64,000 nt of DNA, from assembly GCA_902806565.1 (NCBI GenBank), contig CADCXA010000055.1, forward strand, positions 496,001 through 560,000, read 5' to 3'. This document shows positions 22,049 through 24,019 of the stretch, in pieces. The translations under genes were made by a program, and so were the position numbers. The notes under the pieces were generated by a model, which saw only the letters and a program-made list of their open reading frames with translations, made no database searches and was not told the DNA's origin. Positions within the stretch are counted from its first letter, which is position 1. Each line of letters starts with the position of its first letter. The stretch is from Hypoxylon rubiginosum. Lineage: Eukaryota; Ascomycota; Sordariomycetes; Xylariales; Hypoxylaceae.

Positions 22049-24019
22049 ATGTGGGGCATTAGCACGCACGTAAAATTCGACGATGTCGACCCGAGCAAGT
22101 CGGAGAAGTATAGGGATGCGCCGCACCTCCACCCCAAGGCGTCTCTCGACTACAGCCCGCTGCCTCGCGTAACGCTGCGCTCCCTCAGCATGGGCGCGCT
22201 CGTGTCGATGGGAGGTCTAATCTTCGGGTAATTACCTGCCTATGTTACACGGTTCTCGACCGCGAAGGCATTGGAAGTAATAGTTTGCTAATCGAGATTG
22301 TAGTTACGACACGGGCCAGATCTCGGGTTTCCTCGAGATGCCGGACTTCCAAAGAAGGTTCGGAGAGGTCCAACCTGACGGCAGTTACGGCTTCAGCAAC
22401 GTTAGGACGGGTCTGGTCGTCGGCCTCCTGTCCATAGGCACTCTCATCGGCGCCCTTGTCGCTGCACCCATCGCCGACAGGATAGGGCGGCGCATTTCCG
22501 TATGCCTCTGGTCTATCGTTGTTTCGGTGGGATTTGTGATCCAAGTAGCGTCTGACGATTCCTGGGTGCAAGTAATGATCGGCCGCTTGGTGGCCGGCTG
22601 GGGTGTAGGCGCCCTGAGTTTGCTCGTGCCCATGTACCAAGCCGAGACTGCGCCCCCGTGGATTCGCGGCGCGTTGGTGTGCACGTATCAGCTATTCATC
22701 ACCCTCGGAATCTTCCTGGCTGCTTGTTTCAACTACGGCACCTACGAGCACCAGCAGGATAACTCGGGATCGTGGCGTATCGTCATCAGCTTGGGGTGGA
22801 TCTGGACCGCGATGTTGGCCGGGGGCATCCTAGCCTTCAACGAGACGCCGCGATTTGACTACCGCAGAGGACGCGTGGAGCAAGCTAAGAAGACGCTCAT
22901 GAGGGTGTACGGCGCACCCGAGAACCACTATTCTGTCCACATCCAACTGGAGGAGATCGAGAGCAAGCTCCGAGCTGAATCGCACGTGAAACTAAGTGGC
23001 ATTGGTGGCATTATAGAAATGTTCAGAGGGCCGCGCATGGCATACCGAATAGCACTAGGCATTTTTCTCCAGATGTTCCAGCAGCTAACGGGCGCCAACC
23101 TGTTTTTTTATTTCGGGTATGTATGAAAACATGTCGTGTCGGCATTTTTATCGTCCCTTTCTAGTATAATATAGTAATTTCGCTAACATTCTAACAGTAA
23201 GTATTCTAGTTTCTTCGCTGTTGAGTTGAAGAGAGCAACGTCTGGTATGTTCGAGAAACCTGCGTTAAAAATGCTAACACGACATGTTTTCGTACACTAG
23301 GAACGACCATCTTCCAGTCTGTGCAGATCAACCCTTTCGTCACGCAGATGATCCTCAACGGCATCAACTTCGGCACGACCTTCATCGGACTGTACCTGGT
23401 TGAGCACTACGGACGTCGCTTATCCCTTATCACCGGCAGCATCTGGATGTTTATCTGTTTCATGATCTTTGCCTCGGTCGGCCACTTCATGCTAGATCTC
23501 GAGAATCCCTCTAACACGCCTACGGCAGGCATAGTCCTGATCGTGTTTGCGTGCTTGTTCATCCTGGGCTACGCCACGACTTGGGGCCCAATGGTGTGGA
23601 CGATCATCGCCGAGATCTACCCGTCGAAGTACCGCGCCAAGGCGATGGCTTTGGCCACGGCCAGCAACTGGACATGGAATTTCCTTATCGCTTTCTTCAC
23701 CTCCTTCATCACCACCGCCATCGACTTTCAGTACGGTTATATCTTCGCTGCTTGTAATGTCGTTGCCGGGTTTATCGTTTACTTTTTCGTTATCGAGGGC
23801 CAAGGCCGAACGCTCGAAGAAATTGACACCATGTACATCGAGCACGTATCTCCGATGACCTCGTCCAAGTGGATTCCACCTCCACCCGAGGAGATCGCTC
23901 GGATCCGTCGTGAGGCTGGCACCGAGGTGGCGGATGTGCCGACGCCTGCGGCCAACAACTCTAGCGAGGAGCGGGATGATGATTCTAAGATTGAAAGACA
24001 CCATACAGAAGTTGCCTAA
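22049..24019 (+). CDS. MFS sugar transporter (sugar porter family, hexose-transporter-like)
   Basis: Proton-coupled or facilitative plasma-membrane uptake of monosaccharides. Exons: 22049-22227, 22304-23115 and 23301-24019, giving 569 residues, a normal length for the family. Visible sugar-porter motifs: IFGYDTGQISGF in TM1, ADRIGRR in the TM2-TM3 loop, GRLVAGWGVG, PMYQAETAP then RGALVCTYQL, LTGANLFFYFGTTIF in TM7, VEHYGRR, GPMVWTIIAEIYPSKYRAKAMAL and FFVIEGQGRTLEEID at the end of TM12. The N-terminus is WGISTHVKFDDVDPSKSEKYRDAP; the ATG at 22049 is the first in frame. The first intron has donor GTAATT and a GCTAAT branch. The second intervening sequence is a twin intron whose correct removal restores the invariant YFG-TTIF junction; see its own entry. 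The exact sugar cannot be told from sequence. The cytoplasmic tail is acidic and serine-rich. Confidence 0.93.
23116..23300 (+). other. Stwintron [D1,2]: twin spliceosomal intron splitting the donor of another intron
   Basis: Internal intron 23117-23197 (81 nt): donor GTATGT, branch GCTAAC at about 23182, acceptor CTAACAG. Its removal brings the exon-final G at 23116 next to TAAGT at 23198, creating a perfect GTAAGT donor. The external intron (G23116 plus 23198-23300, 104 nt) then uses branch GCTAAC at about 23273 and acceptor CACTAG. Only two-step removal gives YFG followed directly by TTIF, as the transporter family requires, and exon sizes sum to 1710 nt (570 codons). The conventional reading, with a 47-nt micro-exon at 23198-23244, also stays in frame but inserts 16 residues into conserved TM7. 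A single intron 23117-23300 would shift the frame. Confidence 0.85.
23120..23296. repeat. Terminal inverted repeats of the stwintron (43-nt arms)
   Basis: The arm 23120-23162 is the reverse complement of 23254-23296 at 35 of 43 positions, and three of the eight mismatches would be G-U pairs in RNA. The core, GAAAACATGTCGTGT against ACACGACATGTTTTC, is perfect over 15 bases, and a second block reads GCATTTTTA/TAAAAATGC. The arms bring the first donor and the last acceptor together, as in the internally symmetrical stwintrons known from Hypoxylaceae. Confidence 0.9.

Follow-up and report, generated by a model that had tools for sequence, protein, structure and literature searches.

Putative [D1,2] stwintrons and a second, apparently one-step intron family with similar ends in Hypoxylon rubiginosum

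INTRODUCTION

The closest described relatives of the intron studied here are the sister stwintrons of the Hypoxylaceae and Xylariaceae. According to the main texts of the papers concerned, five of them are present in Hypoxylon rubiginosum MUCL 52887 (PMC12403724 Table 1; PMC8469720), and two stwintrons of this species carry fully complementary NTIRE-10s, which are near-terminal complementary 10-mers as defined in the same account (PMC12403724). Cropped sister introns are predicted in the main text of PMC8469720 to be absent from H. rubiginosum. A single stwintron of this known kind, taken by itself, adds little to the question of how ascomycetes gain introns. Here we describe a putative stwintron in a sugar-porter gene, its sister copies, and a second family of introns with similar ends in the same genome.

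RESULTS

The window, meaning the whole stretch of DNA that was analyzed, spans 64,000 nucleotides (positions 496,001 to 560,000 of the forward strand of contig CADCXA010000055.1, assembly GCA_902806565.1), and coordinates given without a contig refer to its plus strand. The host gene (22049 to 24019) encodes a sugar porter (Sugar_tr, PF00083). Its first intron is an ordinary one of 76 nt (22228 to 22303), and a paralogue on C39 has an intron at about the same place. Further downstream lies a 185-nt element (23116 to 23300), in phase 1 within the glycine codon of YFG|TTIF, that reads as a [D1,2] stwintron: an internal intron of 81 nt (23117 to 23197; donor GTATGT at 23117 to 23122, GCTAAC at 23182 to 23187, acceptor CAG) sits between nucleotides 1 and 2 of the donor of an external intron. 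The first nucleotide of that donor is G23116, and the frame is kept only if it is removed. The remainder of the external intron (23198 to 23300) begins with TAAGT (23198 to 23202) and has a branch site, GCTAAC, at 23273 to 23278 and the acceptor TAG, with 19 nt from the branch element to the acceptor. The first-pass annotation had proposed nested introns in which removal of the first builds the GTAAGT donor of the second, and all of its coordinates proved correct, G23116 meeting TAAGT. With 22228 to 22303 and 23116 to 23300 removed, the coding sequence is 1,710 nt long and open, and its 569-residue product is a Sugar_tr porter.

Three routes were compared in this gene: the stwintron route, retention of 23198 to 23244 as a micro-exon, and excision of one large intron. 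The stwintron route stays in frame; the micro-exon route does as well and adds 16 residues, the 47-nt piece (48 nt with G23116) being open; the single large intron causes a frameshift. It had been argued earlier that exon lengths sum to a multiple of three once both introns are removed. The sum is correct, but a multiple of three alone cannot pick the route because the micro-exon also keeps the frame, and it is the homologues that decide. Of 2,012 sugar-porter homologues found, 120 were listed, and in 118 of these the seam YFG|TTIF is without insertion; a contiguous FFYYGTTIF-type motif is present in 117, and P0120, with GVTIF, is contiguous by eye. The exceptions are P0028, whose model skips residues at the seam, and P0077, whose insertion resembles a retained intron 5 nt downstream of the focal position. 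The junction that the two-step order was said to restore is the one found in these 118 homologues, none of which has the 16-residue insertion after YFG that would have spoken against it. We conclude that 23116 to 23300 is very probably a [D1,2] sister stwintron, the order of splicing being read from the sequence. The first reaction would remove 23117 to 23197 and join G23116 to TAAGT, and the second would excise the remainder and restore YFG|TTIF.

The element is bounded by inverted repeats with arms of 43 nt (23120 to 23162 and 23254 to 23296). A recount reproduced the pairing given in the first-pass annotation, namely, 35 of 43 positions in Watson-Crick pairs plus three G-U pairs, with four unpaired bases at either end; a longer count gives 37 Watson-Crick pairs over 48 positions. 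The terminal inverted repeats are of the length, approximately 45 to 55 nt, by which the sister class is recognized. The 5′-NTIRE-10 (GTATGAAAAC, 23121 to 23130) pairs fully as RNA, with one G-U pair, with the 3′-NTIRE-10 (GTTTTCGTAC, 23286 to 23295). When zero to three unpaired end bases were allowed, the repeat score was 34 of 43, which none of 5,000 dinucleotide shuffles reached (mean, 15.6; standard deviation, 1.9; maximum, 24). The predicted minimum free energy of the RNA fold was −62.1 kcal/mol, compared with −36.0 ± 3.9 kcal/mol in shuffles (z = −6.7; 0 of 200 as low). Covariation did not support a selected structure, as double-sided changes were seen in 0 of the 62 predicted pairs of the consensus hairpin of five copies. 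In Rfam the one hairpin match, to MIR2630 (E = 0.32), stayed below threshold, scoring 21.7 bits where the cut-off is 144, and was read as chance.

Each of three DNA searches of the H. rubiginosum genome returned the same set of five [D1,2] places; searches of this kind score best candidates only, and five is a lower bound. The host genes encode the focal sugar porter, an AMP-binding protein (C31), a GH28 protein (C29), a HET-domain protein (C56), and a GH45 protein (C59:529262). The first-pass annotation had suggested a genome search for sister copies, and that search supplied these four further copies in unrelated genes. A pattern built on the central core matched four of the five copies and nothing else. 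The copies are 84 to 98% identical pairwise over ungapped columns; an alignment of the focal copy with that of C31 has 17 gap columns and, over the 184 ungapped ones, 97.8% identity, and a stretch of 16 nt absent from the focal copy sits in the C31 copy between two TATAAT repeats. In these two copies the NTIRE-10s near both termini are fully complementary. The distance from the branch element to the external acceptor is 19, 19, 19, 20, and 21 nt in the five copies.

Splicing in the [D1,2] manner restores a conserved seam in all five genes, and one-step removal would leave one extra base in each. In the AMP-ligase (C31), the alignment continues across the seam CAGAIYN to McyG (4r0m); the GH28 seam TSCIYTGQG is conserved in all 29 homologues examined of the 120 listed; the HET seam WNQVVEQY is conserved in 19 of 21 examined, again of 120 listed; and the GH45 seam RYWDCC is aligned through to solved GH45 chains. 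Sister copies in the same genome, terminal inverted repeats, and the 19-nt spacing place the focal element in the donor-disrupted stwintron class of the Hypoxylaceae, as had been supposed from the window alone, and it is probably one of the five published H. rubiginosum stwintrons, with which the five copies as a set probably coincide. The GH28 protein is approximately 94% identical to an H. rubiginosum protein, compared with 90% to one of H. cercidicola.

In the GH28 copy (L003:1316-1517), the internal intron is longer by an insert of 201 nt, and the GTACGTA repeats on either side of this insert are duplicates of the donor. A repeat origin of this insert was considered and was unsupported, the insert being single copy in the genome.

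At the HET-domain gene, part of a stwintron appears to have entered a public protein sequence. The public H. rubiginosum HET protein P0241 reads WNQVV-VSILVSFFA-EQYSQ, in which the nine residues VSILVSFFA are encoded by 27 nt, namely, G1 and the next 26 nt of the external intron. These residues are absent from 19 of 20 other HET homologues examined, the 20th not having been located. Our HET protein and P0241 are identical at 429 of 441 positions, 9 of the 12 differences being the intron-coded insertion, and the next species are at 68 to 71%. The first-pass annotation had predicted that gene calling would report a false micro-exon; an error of the same kind has indeed occurred, at the HET sister, but with a 27-nt piece and not the 48-nt one. 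Introns of the stwintron type leave false residues in public proteins and are thus a practical hazard for annotation.

A second family of introns came to light when only the ends of the stwintrons were used as search patterns. With three mismatches allowed, two end patterns gave 9 and 8 matches, compared with 3 and 0 for the reversed control, and several of the places were new; a degenerate 3′-end pattern gave 13 matches, compared with 0 for the control. A DNA search seeded with one new place returned 13 places, and one seeded with a diverged member added three more. The set comprises 17 introns, including one on C12 from the end-pattern search, or 16 without it, and is a lower bound. A fused-ends DNA query designed for cropped stwintrons found only the five known copies and missed the second family. 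Families of [D1,2] stwintrons elsewhere may have unseen canonical partners, because queries with whole stwintrons did not return the second family here and the shorter end patterns recovered it.

The 16 members are at C59:103377, C27:280464, C53:385029, C11:179537, C38:44393, C59:107671, C34:556022, C34:45111, C59:763293, C30:81927, C19:143041, C31:1766422, C38:156742, C50:483633, C8:413766, and C25:2471688. Fourteen are 166 to 200 nt long; the C31 member has 116 nt, and C38:156742 has 89 nt. The related intron counted apart, at C12:334598 on the minus strand, is canonical, 157 nt long, and requires the donor GTGAGT. In all 17 cases a one-step intron joins two open frames, those of C53 (11 codons downstream only) and C38:44393 (20 codons upstream) being weak; for C19 and C25 the acceptor was assigned by visual inspection. 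The [D1,2] reading also has open pairings in C27, C11, C34:556022, and C30. Pfam was run on the canonical reading only, and in 11 of the 17 introns, C27 and C11 included, a domain spans the canonical seam: AA9, DUF1996, 2OG-FeII_Oxy_3, Bac_luciferase, MFS_1, DUF726, Iso_dh, SIR2_2, Fungal_trans, p450, and Glyco_hydro_59, the last slightly below its cut-off. The domain found in C53 and in C30 stops short of the seam, and Pfam on the canonical reading found no domain in C38:44393, C34:556022, C31, or C12. From frames and domains, the second family fits one-step canonical splicing.

Two members, in an AA9 gene (C59:103377) and a gene for a luciferase-like monooxygenase (C59:107671), are 4.3 kb apart. 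The shortened 89-nt member (C38:156742-156831, L090) lies in a SIR2-like gene; in another Hypoxylon, according to the main text of PMC8469720, a SIR2-like gene is host to a cropped intron as well as a stwintron.

The relationship between the two families was assessed by comparing the five stwintrons with the 14 full-length second-family introns, giving 70 pairs, each measured against shuffles. In the 30 nt after the donor, 54 of the 70 pairs scored above every shuffle, and between the branch site and the acceptor 39 did so; in the cores, over the 70 nt compared, the count was 0 of 70. Within families, core comparisons exceeded all shuffles in 20 of 20 cases for the stwintrons and in 90 of 182 for the second family. 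Since the ends match and the cores do not, the two families are joined by their ends only. The C12 intron was counted apart because its 5′ end resembles those of the stwintrons (above all shuffles in 5 of 5 stwintron comparisons and 5 of 14 second-family comparisons), and it may be a canonical intron derived from a sister stwintron. Predicted folding was strong in part of both families. For four of the five stwintrons, no shuffle of 100 folded as well, and the same was true of eight of the 16 second-family introns (C59:103377, C27, C53, C11, C38:44393, C59:107671, C34:556022, and C19) and of C12; the GH45 stwintron copy and the other eight second-family introns were matched by 2 to 56 of 100 shuffles.

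Long terminal inverted repeats in repeated copies would also suit small, MITE-like DNA transposons that are spliced by chance, and DNA-transposon introners are described from other lineages in the main text of PMC9860276. The insertion sites speak against this origin. There was no excess of flanking repeats at the 22 sites that would indicate a target-site duplication: 17 of the 22 had none, where cross-pairing of flanks expects 14.9, and the longest was 3 nt. Furthermore, all 22 copies can be read as sense-strand introns in genes, weakly so for C53, C38:44393, C34:556022, C31, and C12, with the proviso that searches scoring best candidates only may miss diverged intergenic copies. We regard the transposon explanation as unlikely. 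In 14 of the 17 canonical copies, the nucleotide ahead of the donor is G; the probability of this is 1.6e-6 when the local G fraction (0.256) is taken as background but rises to 0.006 should G occupy that place in half of all introns. Either insertion favors a preceding G or splicing selects for it. In the five stwintrons, G1 is preceded by T, T, T, G, and C. The idea that G1 derives from a 1-nt target duplication was rejected, as G starts just three of the five downstream exons.

Whether the stwintron entered an uninterrupted exon depends on what homologues have at the seam. The nearest listed sugar-porter homologue is from H. cercidicola and is 92% identical (among the 120 listed of 2,012, from a database clustered at 90%). 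None of these 120 carries the name of H. rubiginosum, and a protein of that species may be hidden in the cluster of three to which the H. cercidicola protein belongs. P0008, from an 83.8-kb contig, matches 88% of the query at 87% identity. It is one uninterrupted open reading frame, has its start within the second exon, and reads on across the seam; it represents an orthologue without an intron here if its source leaves calls unspliced, as P0077 suggests. Of 11 paralogous loci, 9 are continuous at the seam, and a further one is interrupted six to seven codons upstream of it. In the C39 paralogue (L031/L033), a canonical intron of 70 nt lies at TTC|GGC, 1 nt upstream of the focal position, as would be expected if the stwintron had taken the place of an older canonical intron, or slid away from one, at nearly the same site. 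With the seam of P0008 uninterrupted and most paralogous loci continuous, we consider such a history improbable. Protein comparisons may point to a new intron position, but the position may not be wholly new, because of the C39 intron, the intron-like insertion of P0077, and the residues skipped in P0028. The focal stwintron was probably gained when a copy inserted into a continuous exon without a target-site duplication.

The five copies also bear on the proposal that two ordinary introns flank a genuine micro-exon of 48 nt, G23116 included, from which the protein would gain 16 residues after YFG, constitutively or alternatively. The focal gene itself accommodates this: the piece is open and keeps the frame, and a cryptic donor GTATGT (23245 to 23250), with a branch site GCTAAC downstream, would turn 23198 to 23244 into an in-frame micro-exon. 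The segment, however, belongs to a repeated element present in five unrelated genes, where the equivalent piece gives a stop in two copies and a frameshift in one; it is open in just one of the four other copies, that in the GH28 gene, so it is not a conserved feature of the element. The uninterrupted seam in 118 of the 120 listed homologues argues in the same direction. As the explanation of the locus the micro-exon is very unlikely, and it may occur as a minor isoform of the focal gene. Excision of one large canonical intron (23117 to 23300) that leaves G23116 in the mRNA can draw on inverted repeats that bring the outermost sites together, on such mis-splicing reported for sister stwintrons in the main text of PMC12403724, and on a second family that fits excision between equivalent outer sites, but its product of 1,711 nt is shifted in frame (FFYFGNDHLPVCA); this product is expected in minor amounts and as the main one, a role that we consider extremely unlikely, would ruin the gene.

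DISCUSSION

The common feature of what multiplies in this genome looks like the terminal inverted repeats and not the [D1,2] layout, because the ends recur in at least 16 introns that fit one-step removal and have another core, and in one related intron. With canonical introns having these ends as well, the class is broader than the first-pass annotation had assumed. As for a mechanism, we tentatively suggest that the pair of terminal repeats may be a mobile-intron cassette for two or more unrelated interiors, of which one (five copies) would be spliced in two steps and another (at least 16) in one step, that the ends may suffice for multiplication and the [D1,2] layout may be unneeded, and that the molecule that propagates could be a hairpin RNA excised between the outer sites. 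In this scheme, intron RNA excised whole between the outermost splice sites would fold into a hairpin stable enough for copying into a transcribed exon, in our view the most likely route. The one-step family would release a complete hairpin at each splicing event and the stwintrons only when mis-spliced. The copy numbers, 16 compared with 5, fit this route and are no proof of it. The second family amounts to a natural experiment, with equal ends and a different interior and splicing mode in one genome, and it makes testable the question of whether a terminal hairpin lets introns multiply.

Compared with the sister stwintrons of the Hypoxylaceae and Xylariaceae, as described in the main texts of PMC8469720, PMC9024468, and PMC12403724, the focal element shows no essential difference. 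It shares with them the [D1,2] layout, the size (theirs are 160 to 226 nt in CO27-5), and the terminal inverted repeats, and likewise the complementary 10-mers, the 19-nt spacing, the lack of a target-site duplication, and the presence of several copies per genome. The extra 201 nt of the GH28 copy are not mentioned in the main text of the published work on sister stwintrons.

The second family of introns is seemingly undescribed: no second canonical family with stwintron ends was found in the main texts of PMC8469720, PMC9024468, and PMC12403724. Its nearest counterparts are the cropped introns of CO27-5 and EC38, which in the main text of PMC8469720 are likewise canonical, have stwintron ends, and multiply themselves. 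Those introns are about half the size of a stwintron (93 nt in the examples) and have the middle deleted, whereas the second family is mostly of 166 to 200 nt and has a core of its own that is unrelated to the stwintron core. An origin of the family as type-2 cropped sister introns, in which the 5′ and 3′ parts are fused and the middle is deleted, was rejected in view of the 14 full-length members with their unrelated core. Dchc003S of Daldinia childiae, a canonical intron of 195 nt with terminal repeats of the stwintron type (PMC8469720, main text), is similar to the second family; however, it is one intron, described there as a stwintron turned canonical, and the second family has 14 long members with a different common core.

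A broader comparison is with the introner-like elements of fungi, which are repeated introns in many genes and whose ascomycete families are without target-site duplications, as are the introns described here (PMC9860276, main text). The ascomycete introner families are described in that text as having no terminal inverted repeats, whereas in H. rubiginosum such repeats are pronounced and are common to two families that differ in their modes of splicing.
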